Assembly: GCF_040807025.1 (NCBI RefSeq)
Contig: NC_090943.1
Span: forward strand, 1,536,356-1,600,355
DNA: 64,000 nucleotides
Origin: Struthio camelus
Taxonomy: Eukaryota; Chordata; Aves; Struthioniformes; Struthionidae
Direction: 5' to 3'
The first letter of the stretch is position 1; each line of letters starts with the position of its first letter. Below, piece after piece: positions 3,780 to 50,700 of this stretch. Both the position numbers and the translations under genes were made by a program. Under the pieces are notes generated by a model that saw only the letters and a program-made list of their open reading frames with translations, ran no database searches and had not been told where the DNA came from.

Positions 3780-4745
3780 GGCATCCCAAACACACCCCCC
3801 CTAGACCTCAAACACCCCTGCAAACACCCCCAAAACCCCCAGACATCCCCCACACACCACAAAAAAAACCCAAGCCCCCCCATCCACCACAGAAACCCCT
3901 AAACACCCCCCCACCCACCACAGAACCCCCCCAGACAACCCCCATCTGCTGCAGAAACCCTCAAACCACCCCAGACAGCCCCCCACACCACAAAAAAACC
4001 CACACCCCCCAAACATCCCCCACCCACCACACAACCCCCAGACACCCCCCATCCACCACAGAACCCCCCCCAAACAACTCCCATCTGCCACAGAAACTCT
4101 CAAACCACCCCACACACACCTCCCCACACCACAAAAAACCCCAAACCACCCCAGAAACCCCCCACACCACAAAAACACCCCAAACCACTCCCCAGACACC
4201 CCCCACACCACAAAAGCACCCCAAACCACTCCCCAGACACCCCCCACACCACAAAAACACCCCAAACCACCCCCCAGAAACCCCCCACACCACAAAAACA
4301 CCCCAAACCACCCCCCAGACACCCCCCACACCACAAAAACACCCCAAACCACCCCCCAGACACCCCCCACACCACAAAAACACCCCAAACCACCCCCCAG
4401 ACACCCCCCACACCACAAAAACACCCCAAACCACCCCCCAGACACCCCCCACACCACAAAAACACCCCAAACCACCCCCCAGACACCCCCCACACCACAA
4501 AAAACACCCCAAACCACCCCCCAGACACCCCCCACACCACAAAAAAATCCCAAACCACCCCCCAGACACCCCCCACACCACAAAAACACCCCAAACCACC
4601 CCAGACACCCCCCACACCACAAAAAGCACCCCAAACCACCCCAGACACGCCCCCACACCACAAAAAAAACCCCAAACCACCCCAGACACCCCCCCACACC
4701 ACAAAAATACCCCAAACAGCCCCTATCCACTACATAACCCTCAAA
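3780..4745. repeat. 41-bp minisatellite in PTPN23 intron 1
   Basis: A tandem array with a 41-bp period is clearest between about 4120 and 4720, where a 'cacaaaaacaccccaaacc' block recurs at 4291, 4332 and 4373. The array decays toward 3780. On the plus strand the unit is C runs and A runs without G except in 'cagac'. The transcribed minus strand therefore carries repeated runs of 4-6 G. Roughly 14 good copies are present. Long open frames across it on both strands (Pro/Thr/His-rich on plus, Gly/Val/Trp-rich on minus) come from the repeat and are not genes. Confidence 0.9.
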
Positions 4746-12000: not shown

Positions 12001-15000
12001 GCTGCTCCACCAGCTCCACAATGAGTTCGTTGTTGAAGTACTCGATCTGCAGGGACAGGGTGAGGGGTGCCCACGTTTCCCTACAGCTTGCTCTGCCAGG
12101 CAATGTCTTCCCCGGTGTCCCTCAAATCTCACTCCGCCAGGCAACGTCCCCACCGGTGTCCCCCAAATCACGTTCTGCCACGCGATGCTCTCCCTGGTGT
12201 CCTCCCAAATCACGTTCTTCCAGGTGATGTTTCCCCTTGATGTCCCTCCAAATCTTGCTCTGTCAGGTGACATCCCCACCGGTGTCCCCCAAATCATGTT
12301 CTGCCAGGTGATGACCCCCGGTGTTCCCCAAATCTCACTCTGCCGTATGATGCCCTCCCTAGTGTCCCCCCCAAATCTCACTGCGCTCCCTGATGTCCCT
12401 CCTAATCATGCTCTGCCAGGCGATGCCCCCTGTGTCCCCGCATCCCCACTCATGGTCTGCCAAACGATGCCCCCCACGGCCTGGTGTCCCCGTGTCCCTG
12501 CTCACGCTCTGCCAGGCGATGCCCTCACGCTGGTACTCGGCCTGCTCCTGCCGCAGGATGAGTTCGATGAAGAGCTGCTGCAGCTTCTCGTTGCAGTAGT
12601 TGATGCAGAACTGCTCGAAGCTGGGGACAGCGGGGTCAGTCCCCACTGCGCATGACCCTGTCCCCATGCTGTGTCCCCTCTGCATGTCCCTTGTGGTTCT
12701 GTTCCCTCTGAGTGTCCCTATCCCCTTCATGTGGCCCTGCTGGCTCCTGTCCTCTCCACATGTCCCTGGTAGGTCCTGTCCCCTCCACATGTCCCTTGTG
12801 GCCCTCTCCCCTCCATGTATCTCTCCCAAGTCCTGTCCCCTCCACGTGGACCTTGTGGTCCCATCCCCTCTATGTATCCCTGTCCTCTCTGTGTGTTCCC
12901 TGTGTCCCTGTCCCTCCGCATGTTCCCTGTGGTCCTGTCCCCTCTATGTGTCCCTCCTGGATCCTATCCCCTCCACATGTCCCTTGTAGTCCTGTCCCCT
13001 CAGTGCCTCCCTTGTGTCCCTGTCCCCTCAACGCATCCCTCATAACACTGCTGCAGCCACACAGGCCCTGGGCAGGTCCCTGCATCTCGGCCCACCACGG
13101 GTCACCTGTTGGTGTCGAAGATCTCAAAGCCGTAGATGTCGAGCACACCGATGACGGTGCTCTTGCCGTGCCGGCGGGCATCGTAGTCCTGCGCCTCGAT
13201 GCCAGCGTTGATGCGCCCCACGATCCAGCCGAAGAGCCGCTCGTAGATGGCCTGGGCACGGCGGGGGACATCAGGGTTGGCCTGGGGACACCATGATCCC
13301 CCAGAAGGCTGGGGACACCTGGTCCCCAGACTAACCTTAGCGCAAGCGTCACAGGCGTAGGCGGCCTCCTTGACGCTGTGGCCCTTCTCGATGAGCTCGC
13401 CGCTTCCAGCTGCCACGGTGCGGGCCAGCAGCGCCTGCTGCAGCCGCCCCGGCGCCGTGGACGTCAGCTTGGCCAGCACCGCCAGCAGCCCCTCGTCCGC
13501 CACCGCCGCTGTCTCGCCTTCAGCCACAAACGTCACGTTGCCCTGGGACCCCCGGGACGCACCATTGGAGGATGGATGTGGATGGATGTGGATGTCCCCA
13601 CGCCACCCTGGCCAGGGGCCCTGGCTGGGATGCACTGAGCAGTGCTGGGCTGTACTGGTTTGTATCAGGCTGTACTGCTAGCTGGTGCTAGCTGGGATGG
13701 GCCGGGATAGGATGGGACGGATGGAATGGGATTGGATGGGATGGCACAGGATGGGACAGGACAGGATGGGACGGGAGGGGAAGGGATGGGATGGGTGAGA
13801 CAGACAGAATGGGATGAGATGAGATGGGATAGGATGGGACAGATGGGATGGGACAGGTTAGGGTGGGACTGGATGGGACTGGATGGGACAGATGGGATGG
13901 GATGGGACAGCAGGGATGGGACAGGACAGAACGGGACAGGAGAGGATGGGATGGGGGATGGGATGGATGGGACAGACAGGATAGGATGAGATGGGATGGG
14001 ATGGGACTGGATGGGACAGATGGGATGGGACAGATGGGATGGGTTGGGTCAGATGGGATGGGACGGGATAGGATGGGACTAGATGGGATGGGATGGAATG
14101 GGACAGGACTGGATGGGACTGGATGGGACTGGATGACATGGGACGGGATGAGATGAGACAGGATAGGATGGGATGGGACAGGACTGGACAGGATGGGACG
14201 AGATGGGATGGGATGGCACAGGATGCACTTCACCAGGTGCAGGATGGCAGCGAGGATCTTGTACACGGAGCTGATCTCCTCTGGGGTGAAGCCGATCACT
14301 GCCATGGCGTCCTCCACTGCCTTGTAGCTGGCTGCGTCATCACCCCCAGCCTGGGGATGGAGGGGGCCAGAGTGGCACAAGGAGGTCAGGGTGCCTGGGG
14401 ACCCCACTTGCCCCCTGCTCCGGCACTCAGCGGGGCTGAGCCCCAGCACATTCATCACCCGCTGCGTGGCACAGTGTCACAGCACCCCCCGGCCGATTCC
14501 CCGATGCTGTGGCCACTCACGCTGCTGGTGGTGCCCTCCTGGGTGTAGCGGTAGGCCCCGGGGTCGCGGCAGAGGTGCAGCGAGGCCAACAGCGATTCAG
14601 GGGCTCCCCGCAGCAGCTGAGGGGAAGGGGTGGTCATGGGGCTCCGTCACTCCCCCCAAGTCCCGCAGCCGGGGACGAGGCAGACCCCTGCCTTCGTCCC
14701 ACCCTGCCCGGTGTCCCCCGACCTGGCCCAGCCTGTCTGGACCCAGCTGGTTCCATCACAGCCTGTCCTGTCCCGTCCCACCACATTCTGTCCCATCCCA
14801 TCCCATCCCATCCCATCCTGTCCTGTCCCCTCCCACCACATCCTATCTCATCCCATCCATCCCCATCCCAGCCTGTCCCCATCCTGTCCTTCCCTTTTGG
14901 ACCCTAGCACATGCTTCTACCAGCCTATCCCCATCCAGTCCTGTCCTGTCCCATCCCATCTCATCCCATCCTGTCCCATCTCACCCTGCTCTGTCCCATC

Positions 15001-20297: not shown

Positions 20298-20431
20298 GCA
20301 TGTCCGAGATTTCTATAGCCTCCCTCCGAAGGGAGCAGAGAGAGGCCTCAAACCATCTCAGGGCTGCTCTGGCAAGCACTACAGGAATGAACAGGGTCAC
20401 CCCAGACCCGGCCACGCTGGAAGGCTTGCGG
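20298..20431 (-). ncRNA. H/ACA box snoRNA, copy 1 (SNORA9-like)
   Basis: On the minus strand this is a two-hairpin RNA of about 134 nt. The 5' hairpin is closed by GCAAGC/GCTTGC. The H box AGAGCA (fits ANANNA) is at 20365-20370. The 3' hairpin is closed by CTGAGAT/ATCTCGG and topped by CTCCCT-TCGG-AGGGAG. The ACA box is at 20301-20303 with exactly three bases after it (ACATGC). It would guide pseudouridylation with dyskerin. The SNORA9 label rests on position between MYO1G and CCM2, not on a sequence search. Confidence 0.75.
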
Positions 20432-21434: not shown

Positions 21435-21568
21435 GCATGTCTGAGATTTCTATAGCCTCCGCCTGAGGAGGGCAGAGAGAGGCCTCAAACCATCCCAGGG
21501 CTGCTCTGGCAAGCGCTACAGGAATGAACGGGGTCACCTCAGACCCGGCCACGCTGGAAGGCTTGCCG
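21435..21568 (-). ncRNA. H/ACA box snoRNA, copy 2 (SNORA9-like)
   Basis: This is a second copy of the same RNA, 1,137 bp upstream in the presumed host. H box AGAGCA is at 21502-21507 and ACA at 21438-21440 followed by three bases. The 5' hairpin loop and both presumed guide-pocket regions ('ttcattcctgtag', 'gaggctatagaaatct') are nearly identical to copy 1. The 3' hairpin differs but still pairs: CTGGGAT/ATCTCAG at the base and CCTCC/GGAGG at the tip. Sequence outside the RNA is unrelated apart from a few bases, so the snoRNA itself is the conserved unit. Confidence 0.75.
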
Positions 21569-44700: not shown

Positions 44701-47700
44701 AGTGCAGGGCTGCCTGGGCTAACACCGAGGTTAGGAAGTACCGCTTAACTTAAAGCAGGGAGCAAATTCAGTAGGAGGCTGTATTGATACCTTCCCCTCT
44801 TTCAGCATGAAGCTGCTTGCTCAGATGATCTGCTGAAAACTGTTTCAGTCGAACTTGGAGAGGAAGGCCTGCCACATATTTCTGCCTCTGGCCTCTTAGT
44901 CCAGATGCATCAGCTCAGCCTTGCTCCGATATGCATCAGGACGTGAAAGCTGTGGGTGGAGGTCTGAGCTGGATCGTAGGAATCTCTTCAAGAGGAGAAA
45001 CGAGGCTCTGCTAAAAATAGCCGGGGAAAATTCCTTTCCTCTTGCCTTAAAGGAAAATCCTGTCAGTGTAGCTGGAGCCCAGTGTAGCTGGCAAGGCAGC
45101 CTGAAATGTGAAAAGAGCTGAGCCTTGTTTTGTAAAGGGCTCTTGTGCAGCTGTTGCACTAGTCCTAAGCTGCTGCTTTTTAGACTGACTTGAGTGCTAG
45201 CTTACTGTTTTTTTTAGGGAAATTGTATGTTTCTGCATTACTTGGATTTAATAATGTGCTTGTCTATGGGAACAGCTTTGAAATCAAATATAGGGTCTCT
45301 GACTGAAATAAGAATCCTTAATTTTTTTTAACGTGGTGCTGCCTCTGCTGACCCTGTGCATGTAGGTTGTGCATCTGTCTGCTGGAGGCAGGGAAGGGGT
45401 CCAAAGGCCCCAGGGGTCCACTCATTCCAGGTGATCCTCTAAGCACAAGCAATTCAGCCCAGTAGAGATGAAGCCAGGTCTTGTGGGGCCACAAGAGGAC
45501 TTGGAATGGCTGTCGTAGCAGAATATTGCTGAGCAGGATGGTAAGATGGTCTTAAGAGCCTCCTCTATAGGAGTTAAGCTGATGAAGATGGTTTCCCAAT
45601 CAGCTGGCCCCCATGTAAGTGAGGCACCCTGTGCTGCTTTGATTTGAGGAAAGCAGTCAGGATTAGAAGGGGGAAGGATGACTAACACAGTGCTGATGAC
45701 ACTGGAAAACTGCCAACAGGGTGGGGTGGGGAAGGATGGTAACCTAGAACAAAATCCTTCCTTTCATGCTGTAGTGAGCACAAAGCTATTTTTACCTGGC
45801 ACTAAAAGGCAAGAGTTACATATTGCCTTTTGCAGCCTTGCCCATAAAATGGATTTGTAGCCTCCTTGTTGAAGGAAGTGAGCTTCATTTCACTTTCTCC
45901 CAACCCCCGACACATTGGGTAGTGGGATCGGATGTTCAGTTCATTGGGAAAGCAGGGATGACTGCTGGAACTGTTCTTAGTGGTAGTCAGGTTGCAGCAA
46001 GTTGCCTTTGCACTGGAGAAGCAACAGGAAACTGAGACGCAATGCCATGCAGAGCCAAGCACTGCTGCCTCTGCAGCTCCTGGGCTCTTTCCTTCTTGAT
46101 CCCTAGAAGAGTTGCCTTCTTTAAGAAGGCTCTTTGACAACATGTAGGAAGAGCTGCAAGATCCCTTGCACCCTGCCTGATCAGGGAGAAGTTGATGAGG
46201 CCTACAGAAAGCTGGAAGTAGCCTCATGAACACAGGCCCTGGTTCTCATGGGGTGCTTCAACCACCCTGACATCTGCTGGGAAGACAGCACAGCTAGACA
46301 CAGTCAAAGAGGTTCCTGCAGAGTACTGAGGATAACTTTTTGACACAGGTGGTGGAGAAGCCAATGAGGAGATGTGTGCTGCTGGACCTTGTACTAACAA
46401 ACAAGGAAGGTCTGGTTGGAGATGGGATGGTTGGGGGCAACCTTGGCTGCAGTGACCGTGGGATGGTAGAGCTCAGGGTCCTGTGCGGAAGAAGCAGGGC
46501 AATAAGTAAGTTTGCAACCCTGAACTTCAGGAGGGCTAACTTTGGCCTCTTCAGGGACCTACTTGGAGGAATCTCATGGGGTAGGGCCCTGGAAGGAAGG
46601 GGGGGGAGGGTCCAGGACAGCTGGTTAATATTCAAGCATCACTTCCTGCAGGCTCAAGAGCAGTGCATCCCTCTGAGTAAGAAGTTGAGCAAAGCAGGCA
46701 GGAGACCTGCATGGATGAGCAAGGAACTTTCTGGCAAAACTCCAACAGAAGGAAGTCTACAGAACGTGGAAAAGGGGACAGGCCACTTGGGAGGAATACA
46801 GGGATATTGTCAGAGTACGCAGGGATGCAACAGGAAGGCTAAGGCCCATTTGGAATTAAATCTGGCAAGAGATGTCTTGGACAACAAGAAGGGCTTCTTC
46901 AAATACATCAGGAGCAAAGGGAAGCCAAGGGAAAATGTGGGCCTGCCTCTGAATGGGGCGAGGGACCTGGTGACAAAGGACACAAAAGGCTGAGGTCCTG
47001 AACGCCGCCTTTGCTTCAGTCTTTACTGCTAAGGCCAGTCTTCTCCAGACTCTCTTGTCCCCAGAGTCTGGGATTCCTGAAAGTAAGACTCTCCCTTGGT
47101 TGAGGAGGTTAGAGATCGTTTGTGTAAACTTGACACCCACAAATCCATGGGCCCTGAGGGGATGCACCTACAAGTACTGAGGGAGCTGGCGGATGTTATT
47201 GCTAGGCCACTCTCCATCTTGGAAAGGTCCTGGAGATCAGGAGAGGTGCCTGAGGACTGGAAGAAAGCCAGCGTCCCTCCAGTCTTCCAAAAGGGCAAGG
47301 AGGAGGAGCCAGGAAACTACAGGGCTGTCAGCCTTACCTCCAGCCCTGGAAAAAGGTGATGGAACACTGGACCTGGAGCTCATCACTAAGCACATGGAAG
47401 ACAAGGAGGTGATCAGGAATAGTCAGCACAGATTCACCAAAGGAAAATCGTGCTTACCCAACCTGATAGCCTTCTCTGATGGGAGACACCTGGCTGGGTA
47501 GAGGAGGGGAGAGCAGTGAGGGTGGACTACCTGGGCTTCAGCAAGGCTTTTCCACACTGTCCCCCATCACATCCTCACAGGCAAGTCGATAAAGTATGGG
47601 CTGGACGAGTGGACAGAGAGGTGGATTGAGAACTGGCTGGATGGCCGAGCTCAGAGGGTTGTGGTCAGCAGTGCAGAGTCTAGTTGGAGGCCTGTGTGTA

Positions 47701-50700
47701 GTGGTGGTCCCCAGGGGTCAGTCCTGGGACCAATATTGTTCAGCTTATTCATCAATGACCTGGAGGAAGGGACAGAGTGCACCCTCAGCAAGTTTGCCGG
47801 CGATACAACACTGGGAGGAGTGGCTGATGCCCCAGAGGGCTGTGCTGCCATTCAGAGGGACCTGGACAGGATGGAGAGATGGGCAGAGAGGAACCTCCTG
47901 AAGTTCAACCAAGGCAAGGGCAGGGTCCTGCCCCTGGGGAGGAATAACCCCAGGCACCAGGACAGGCTCGGGGCTGACCTGCTGGAAAGCAGCTCTGCAG
48001 AGAAGGACCTGGGGGCCCTGGTGGACAACATGTTGACCATGAGCCAGCAACGTGCCCTTGGAGCCAAGAAGGCCAATGGTCTCCTGGGCTGCATGAGGCA
48101 GAGTGTTGCCAGCAGGTGGAGGGAGGTGAACCTGCCCCTCTCCTCAGCCCTGGTGAGGCCTCCCCTGGAGTGCTGTGTCCAGTTCTGGGCTCCCCAGTAC
48201 AAGAGAGACATGGCACTCCTGGAGAGAGTCCAGTGGAGGGTTATGAAGATGAGGGGACTGGAGCATCTGTCCTCTGAAGAAAGGCTGAGAGAGCTGGGCT
48301 TGTTTAGCCTGGAGAAGACTGAGGCGGGGGATCTGATCAATGTCTACAAGTATCTGAAGGGAGGGTGTCAAGAGGATGGGGCCAGACTCTTCTTCATCGT
48401 GTCCAGTGGCAGGACAAGAGGCAACGGGCACAAACCGCAACACAGGAAGTTCTGTCTGAACATGAGGAAAAACTTATTTCCTGTGAGGGTGACCGAGCAC
48501 TGGCCCAGGTTGTCCAGAGAGGCGGTGGAGTCTCTTTCCCTGGAGATATTGAAAACTCGTCTGGATGTGATCCTGGGAAATGTGCTCTAGAGGACCCTGC
48601 TTGAGCATGGCAGTTGGACTAGATCTCCAGAGGTCCCTTCCAACCTCAACCATTCTGTGATTCTTCTGCCTGTGTGACTGTTCCCTTGGCTTCAGTACCT
48701 GATCTAGGCTTTCAGGTGATGGACCCAAGCAGGCCCTCATCCATGGGGGAACTGCAGTCTATAGCAGAAATGAGCACTACTTTGCCTAAAAGACGTCTTC
48801 TGAAAGATGGAGCGTGCTCTGTTCTCTGCCTCAGATCCAGGTCCCACTGGTTAGGATCCCCTCAAGTGTGTGCTTTCAAAATCCCAGGAGGACCCTTCTG
48901 TACATCTTCTCATTCAGTGTGCAATCCTGAGGCTACACACCTGAGAATATGCAGTGGTATGGTGTTGTCTTAAAGGCCTTTCTATTGGAAGATGTTCTTG
49001 CAGTAAAAAATTACCACCCTCCACAAAACTTAAGGTCTCACAGCTACAGCTGTTGTTTTTTCTGCTTTGGCAGAAGACATGGGATTAGGGAAGAAGCTGG
49101 GAGCAAATGCCATGTTCCTCTGCCTGGGTTTCCTTGCTTGGGGTTGGTGAGATTTCTGTCATCTGACAGCGTTTAAGTGTCTTAAACTACAAATTAGTTT
49201 TAAAACGCCATTCTGAATGTGTTGCTCTTTCAGACCAGCCTGCTGAATGTGGGGGGGAAAAACTGTGGATTGCCTTTAAGATTCCTTATGCCAGGCATCT
49301 CAGCCCTGGCATGAGTCAGCTGAAGCTGTTTGCAGCGAGACAAAGCAAAAGATGCTCTGCAGGACTTACGTGATGTGTTCGGTTGTGCGTGTTGCAGATC
49401 TAGGTTTAAGCATCCTCCGAATGCTGAGGGAGGAAAGGTTTGTGGCTCTCCCTCCTTGGTTTAGGAACCAAGTCTCAGTCCTCCTTGACAAAAGTTGACA
49501 GAGGTCAGGAGTGGTATCTAGAACTGCAACCACCTTTCTGCTCAGCAGCCTTGGCAGCATGCCTTGAGCTTTGGTCTGGATTGGTTTTGAACTCCTTGCC
49601 TGGCATCGTTCTCCAGAGCTCCCTTTAAAATCCTTCCTGTAGTGTTTTGCTAAAGCTGATAAAAAGCAGAAGCAGTTCTTAGTTTGTAGCTTCAAAGAGG
49701 AATTACTTGGATAATGATTCTACTTGAAAAAATATCTGGATGCTAAAGTGCTGTGGGTAGGAGAGCAACTGACCAAACAAAACCAGCTCTTGTGCAGAGA
49801 TGTTGGCGTGCCAAGTCCCAGCGCTGAACCTGGAGCTGACTTGTCTGGAGTTTCTCAGACCAAATGCTGACACACCTTTATCTCTCTGCGCCCGCAGTCG
49901 GGACAGCTGATGACCTAGAAACAAGCCCCTGCAGTGCCAGTTTACCGCTTTATCAAATGTTCTTTGTCTAACAAAAACCAGAGGGGTGCTTGGAATATGC
50001 AGCCCTTAATGAAAGGGCTTTAAGGAAGATGTTGCCAGCTGGCATGCTGCGATGTTAACGCACCCTCAGCTGTGAGCCGAGCCAGCGGGCTGAGGAGGAA
50101 GCAGCAAGGGGAATGGAACGTGTTTAATGGACGGTTTTCAGTCTAGAGCCCACATCTCGTTTGAGAGGGCTCCCAAGCTGACTCGGTGACTCTAGAAGAG
50201 CTGCCGAGTTCTCCACCTGGTCTTTCCTTGTAGTGGTAACATCTGAATAAAGCACTTGGGGGTGCCTGGAGTAGTGGTAGGGACCAGCTGGTTCTGTTGA
50301 AAGCTCTTTTCCTAATGAGCCTATTGAGCCAAACAGCATTCCCCAGTAAAGCCACCACTGTAAAATTAGACATGTAATGAGTATGACCTTCCTCAATTAT
50401 CTCTAAGCAATGCTGAAATACGCTGTAACCTCTCTGATCTGAAAGCCAGGGCAGAGACTGCTTGTAATGGGGCTGGGCGCTGCTGCTAGCTAAACAATTG
50501 GGAAACTGTTTGGCCTTGCTACATGCATTGCTGAGCTGCTTGTGGATCATGGATTTTGGCTTCCACTCAGGCATTTGTGTTGTAAACTGAAGTAAAGAGC
50601 TGCCTCCTGAGCAGCTTGGCTGTGTAGCAAGGGCAGGAGCAATTGCCTCCTTGACTCACCCCCTATAAGTTCAGATCTGTAGGCTGCTACTTTGGGGAAG

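Follow-up and report, generated by a model that had tools for sequence, protein, structure and literature searches.

A class I myosin gene that is probably MYO1G lies on the minus strand of a 64,000-nucleotide stretch of Struthio camelus DNA (contig NC_090943.1, positions 1,536,356 to 1,600,355; hereafter the window). Most of its intron 10 is taken up by a degenerate minisatellite whose units repeat the end of exon 10, its splice junction and the first bases of the intron. It is very probable that the array goes back to a tandem duplication that spanned the exon-intron border across the donor site, followed by neutral amplification and decay. No sign was found that the array is used or is under selection, and it is a molecular fossil of the border duplication.

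Organization of the intron 10 array

The exon, the intron, the donor and the units of the array, with the borders of U1 to U10 set by eye, are as follows:

12620-12506, minus strand: exon 10 of the myosin gene; the unit derives from its last ~18-21 bases
12524..12531, minus strand: AGCGTGAG within exon 10 (AGC/GTGAGG); found again 23 bases further, across the real junction (12508-12501)
12500..12508, minus strand: authentic donor AGC/GTGAGC (junction after AGC); the C-G across the junction forms a CpG
12505-12047, minus strand: intron 10, 459 bp, mostly array
12431..12473, minus strand: U1, at a distance of 52 bp from the exon copy; its junction is CC/ATGAGT
12391..12430, minus strand: U2, with an exact exon 18-mer at 12427-12410; junction GC/ATGATT
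12359..12390, minus strand: U3, exon part truncated; junction GCA/GTGAGA
12320..12358, minus strand: U4, junction AGA/GTGAGA; scores above the real donor on a human donor matrix
12281..12319, minus strand: U5, junction AC/ATGATT
12239..12280, minus strand: U6, junction GC/AAGATT
12196..12238, minus strand: U7, junction AC/GTGATT
12155..12195, minus strand: U8, junction AC/GTGATT
12114..12154, minus strand: U9, junction GGA/GTGAGA
12069..12113, minus strand: U10, junction GC/AAGCTG; adjoins the acceptor region

After the exon copy (U0), the ten degenerate units cover most of intron 10, from 12473 to 12069, and each consists of a variant of GGCATCGCCTGGCAGAGC followed by a variant of GTGAGCAGGG, the truncated U3 being the exception. 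A preliminary description of this DNA had counted about nine units; the array is real, and the number of downstream copies is ten, one of them incomplete. Starting from U0, the unit-to-unit distances are 52, 44, 30, 43, 39, 41, 43, 42, 41 and 41 bases, such that the spacing lies between 39 and 44 bp for eight of the ten units. These are head-to-tail copies of a unit within the ~10-100 bp of a minisatellite, and Tandem Repeats Finder (TRF) alone reports an array at 12090-12382 with a period of 41, 6.2 copies and 72% matches. At 17 of the 18 exon columns the commonest letter among U1-U10 is the exon letter, and the 18th is tied (G 4, A 4), the pattern that descent from the exon would produce.

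There are also indications of higher-order copying. Segments 126 bp apart (12123-12187 and 12249-12313) are 85% identical over 65 bases, and it seems that a three-unit block was amplified again; mean unit identities of 0.839 at an offset of three units, versus 0.803 at one and 0.813 at two, lend this mild support. No gradient of polarity away from the exon was seen, the identities of the units to the exon copy ranging without order from 0.76 to 0.89. The 8-base repeat AGCGTGAG is a possible seed for slippage, and its 23-bp spacing was sought among the units and not seen.

Similarity to the end of exon 10

The exon 18-mer GGCATCGCCTGGCAGAGC has six matches with three or fewer mismatches in the whole window, all within 12090-12523, of which one is the exon itself and one an exact copy at 12410-12427; the chance expectation is 0.15, and six were reached in none of 100 shuffles. 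A degenerate 20-mer spanning the junction has five matches in the window, all in exon 10 or the array, with an expectation of 0.17 and five reached in 0/100 shuffles, but it was designed with the units in view and its count is thus not independent.

Each of 21 exon ends (24 bases) was also compared with the intron that follows it, using 100 shuffles; the acceptor ends are approximate for introns 1, 19, 20 and 21. The end of exon 10 has nine matches in intron 10 (shuffled mean 0.15, largest 1 in 100) and a best score of 38 versus 16.7 +/- 2.2 in the shuffles, and intron 10 is the sole clear match to its own exon end among the 21 introns tested. In the remaining introns the best score never reached P < 0.05 relative to shuffled sequence; exon 13 came closest (P 0.05), followed by exon 5 (P 0.06), and neither has a match. 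Intron 14 has one match (P 0.23). Intron 7 contains five weak matches to the end of exon 7, all of a simple CATCC type (shuffled mean 1.15, largest 4; best score ordinary, P 0.33), which may be simple-repeat chance. The CATCC-type array of intron 7 (13543-14233, minus strand) starts 17 bases downstream of the donor.

The extent of the similarity was tested in nine units (U1, U2 and U4 to U10); in U4, U6 and U7 the anchor was displaced by one base. Five of the nine remain similar beyond the junction, on the intron side, at P <= 0.02, and the other four are not significant there (P 0.09 to 0.195). Deeper into the exon than ~21 bases the similarity lacks significance in seven of the nine (P 0.135 to 0.825), with borderline values in U5 (0.040) and U8 (0.045), so the copied exon part described at first as the last 20-30 bases is better given as ~18-21. 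Taken together, these tests confirm a tandem array that repeats the exon-10 end, the junction and the first intron bases.

Intron 10 is not the only repetitive intron of this gene. Ten of the 21 introns are at least 340 bp long, and in seven of these ten TRF arrays occupy 63-83% of the length (TRF rows merged by hand); an array makes up 9% of intron 12, also in this size class, and TRF reported none in introns 1 and 16 of the same class and none in any of the 11 shorter introns (69-224 bp). This abundance of large arrays favors the view that the resemblance to the exon is due to chance, or that a general G-rich minisatellite is present without any link to the exon. However, such a view is already contradicted by the exact 18-base copy, by nine matches versus 0.15 and by the other 20 introns, none of which clearly matches its own exon end, and we give it practically no weight. 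Intron 10 would seem to be one among several introns that apparently grew through tandem repeats, and it is the one whose founder took in the exon-intron border. Between 6605 and 17107 (minus strand), the arrays of the mostly-array introns end 27 to 136 bases before the acceptor, the figure of 27 being due to a 25-base stretch of intron 7 (13570-13594) that TRF lists as a row of its own.

Source and direction of the duplication

Joined, exons 10 and 11 read WQS-IEYFNN, and the alignment with four solved class I myosins is ungapped at this point, which marks the exon as the conserved party. A search of the genome with exon 10 and the array as query gave, among the best candidates listed, this locus and five others (L002-L006); a motif search found a myosin exon in L002 to L005 and none in L006. 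L002 has a better E-value than L003, and L003, which we take to be MYO1D, is the sole paralogue locus seen with an intron at the codon position of exon 10. Its junction reads WKH/IDYFNN, with the next exon ~870 nt on, and its exon end is identical to that of MYO1G exon 10 at 17 of 24 bases. This exon end has no match in its own intron, of which the initial 459 of ~870 bases were compared, and none in the MYO1G array, where the MYO1G exon end has nine. TRF, which was applied to L002, L003 and L004, found no array in the 3,119 bases of L003. L003 shares the intron position but has no such array, so exon 10 is the source of the unit, and the units most likely arose after MYO1G and L003 had parted. 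The 18-mer, per-intron and paralogue tests thus support the proposal that an exon-intron boundary was amplified, with the exon as the source.

Two further features of the paralogues were seen. L003 carries a similar GTGAGG in the same codons as the AGC/GTGAGG of exon 10, and near the myosin paralogue in L002, at 1914-2599, TRF reports an array of 0.7 kb made of GTGTCCGTGCCC-type units of 18/24/36 bp.

Decay of the junction copies

At the junction, C/GTGAGC, the last exon base and the first base of the intron together form a CpG. Among the ten units the junction dinucleotide is CA in five, has both bases missing in three and is still CG in two; the CpG within the exon-like part (ATCGCC) is CG in three, CA in four, TG in two and missing in one, and is thus kept in 3/9 units having it, these counts being small (7 to 9 informative units). 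Positions +2, +3 and +4 are kept in 8/10, 10/10 and 9/10 units. T is found at +5 in nine of ten units and at +6 in nine of ten, in a hand alignment that places U3, U4 and U9 with the CG deleted and leaves out a GA; these three are equally readable as keeping the G at +5, a reading under which the claim of donor loss is weaker still. It is more likely that the shared change at +5/+6 is one early change spread by amplification, and because the units share it the copies are not independent.

The preliminary description had suggested that purifying selection degraded the donors while the exon-like part was better kept. Compared with exon 10 itself, the exon part matches in 135/166 cells and the +2 to +10 columns in 55/90, but the exon part seems better kept in this comparison because selection holds exon 10 fixed and leaves the first intron bases free to drift. 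Among the copies themselves the intron columns are slightly more alike, with a mean pairwise identity of U1-U10 in the hand alignment of 0.77 in columns +2 to +10 and 0.70 in the exon columns. Purifying selection is not supported, as the junction and exon-part CpGs decay in much the same way. Selection against the donors was considered and rejected, since CpG decay can account for the junction losses and +2 to +4 are mostly kept. Selection is not needed, and counts this small and non-independent also could not show a weak effect.

Donor strength and possible use of the copies

On a human donor matrix the real donor scores 3.72, the third lowest of the gene's 21 donors; by U1 pairing energy (-5.4) it is the sixth weakest of 21. 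Five sites in intron 10 outscore it on this matrix. The GTGAGA copies score 4.28 in U3 (12381), 5.04 in U4 (12338) and 4.17 in U9 (12132), and the spacer sites at 12279 and 12153 (CCG/GTGGGG) score 6.61, with a U1 energy of -8.0. By U1 energy the copies at 12338 and 12132 are equal to the real donor at -5.4, and that at 12381 is weaker at -4.6. A site within exon 10, at 12528 (AGC/GTGAGG, 23 bases before the real donor), also scores higher (4.18). The statement that each copy is weakened at +4 to +6 consequently fails for U3, U4 and U9, which read GTGAGA and outscore the real donor on the matrix.

In view of three GTGAGA units that outscore a weak real donor by matrix, two of which match its U1 energy, and of the pair of spacer sites at 6.61, the array could be imagined as a field of decoy donors that binds U1 and regulates or damps exon 10 splicing, and that selection keeps or purges. 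However, donor-like sites in intron 10 are not in excess (5 scoring at least 4 versus 3.7 +/- 1.65 in shuffles), counts at five thresholds are not above those in shuffles (P 0.07 to 0.5), and the junction losses are explicable by CpG decay. Moreover, none of the seven candidate donors tested preserves the reading frame and a stop follows in all seven, and extensions that are not divisible by 3 and then run into a stop give no productive isoform; judged from the reading frame, the copies would, if used, be expected to yield unproductive RNA. We consider a decoy field very unlikely, and the earlier suggestion of decoy recruitment by the array is not borne out, donor-like sites being no commoner than in shuffles.

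G triplets can serve as intronic splicing enhancers, and the array might instead act in this way, its repeated G-runs aiding a weak donor. Intron 10 has 25 G-runs of three or more in 459 nt versus 17.3 +/- 2.6 in mononucleotide shuffles (P 0.004), a count inflated by the tandem repeat structure, and only two of the gene's 21 donors score below the real one on the matrix; the G-run excess leaves room for a role in splicing. Yet the density of 5.4 per 100 nt is ordinary for the gene, introns 2, 5, 9, 11, 12 and 13 being higher and intron 3 equal, and by U1 energy the real donor is just the sixth weakest. An enhancer function is therefore unlikely in our judgment.

Origin and age of the array

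The border-spanning duplication that we favor would have begun with one tandem duplication that copied a ~50-bp segment over the exon 10/intron 10 border, the founder segment taking in a minimum of ~18-21 bases from the exon end, together with the donor and about 20-30 bases of intron. The protein reading frame suggests that the original, upstream donor stayed in use, such that the protein would have remained unchanged and the downstream copy would have been turned into intron. Slippage or unequal exchange may then have amplified the copy, with a later unit of ~41 bp and a sign of a three-unit block being recopied, lengthening a presumably shorter intron to 459 bp. The copies would have decayed neutrally, most rapidly at their CpGs, among them the CpG across the junction.

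The nine full units (dropping U3) have a mean identity of 0.796. At a substitution rate of 1.9e-9 this corresponds to an age of ~62 My, a figure that considers aligned columns only and ignores gaps, exchange between units and CpG excess. The array is probably not young; the founder event and its date are, however, conjectured from the sequence of one species.

Known processes explain the array, which is a neat fossil and can serve as a test case; nothing seen points to a function. Here an intronic minisatellite can be traced cleanly to its founder, with the conserved exon 10 serving as a fixed yardstick for the copies, and it illustrates that a border-spanning duplication can lengthen an intron without changing the protein. 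It is also a natural setting in which to test which of several near-equal donors in succession the spliceosome selects. A bolder proposal is that introns in GC-rich bird genes may lengthen through tandem capture of the donor boundary, with the upstream donor winning, and that the GTGAGA copies bind U1 and tune MYO1G. We regard this as quite improbable; if true, exon sequence would repeatedly become intron harmlessly, and the GTGAGA copies would give rise to a low level of frame-shifted, decayed transcript.

Comparison with known systems

The closest precedent is the minisatellite of human IFI6 (6-16, G1P3), reportedly described by Turri, Cuin and Porter in 1995 (Nucleic Acids Res 23:1854). In both systems minisatellite units carry splice donors, and two downstream repeat units of IFI6 are donor sites, giving three mRNA species (PMC4526556). 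The IFI6 copies are thus used, whereas frame and decay argue against use in intron 10. In intron 10 the spacings are 30 to 52 nt, three of the ten being divisible by 3, and none of the seven donors tested keeps the frame; the IFI6 unit is generally given as 12 nt, a length that preserves the frame when a copy is used.

Intron gain by tandem duplication, as in ATP2A1/ATP2A2 and a potato RdRp gene, is similar in that the duplication supplies splice signals and exon sequence ends within an intron; in the potato gene the duplication crosses an intron-exon border (PMC4974935). The ostrich array differs in that an existing intron was probably lengthened and, judging from the reading frame, the old donor was retained. 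It is not a new intron inside a former exon, the corresponding codon position in L003 being likewise interrupted by an intron. In unit size, GC content and degeneration the array is like ordinary intronic minisatellites of GC-rich DNA, several of which are present in the same gene, but unlike them its founder unit spans a splice junction, and so its source is known. A literature search, with subscription papers mostly outside its coverage, gave nothing on MYO1G together with a minisatellite, and no boundary-derived array in a bird appeared among the matches listed (titles and abstract starts).

Gene identity and genomic setting

In a comparison with solved structures the gene product matches myosin-Ic and myosin-Ib best, and it has the class I myosin motor expected of MYO1G; no chain named MYO1G is among the best 60 of 150 solved-structure matches. 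The name is our assumption, taken from the human protein and from the SNORA9 neighborhood. Two H/ACA snoRNA copies lie ~1.1 kb apart:

20298-20431, minus strand: SNORA9 copy 1
21435-21568, minus strand: SNORA9 copy 2

In human, SNORA9 presumably lies in SNHG15, which adjoins MYO1G; the two SNORA9 copies place the ostrich locus in the corresponding setting insofar as this linkage holds. The pair is perhaps located in introns of an SNHG15-like host gene.

The contig is 173.7 Mb long, and the start of the window lies 1.54 Mb from one of its ends. Chromosome ends tend to be minisatellite-rich, and if the end of the contig is the end of the chromosome, a minisatellite-rich setting is unsurprising. 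Beyond the 3' end of the gene, at 4101-4717, TRF reports an array of 15.1 copies of 41 bp with 94% match, which looks younger than the intron 10 array and has an equal period. On the plus strand, 47661-48590 is a 309-aa open frame that we take to resemble the end of a CR1-type reverse transcriptase (avian CR1).
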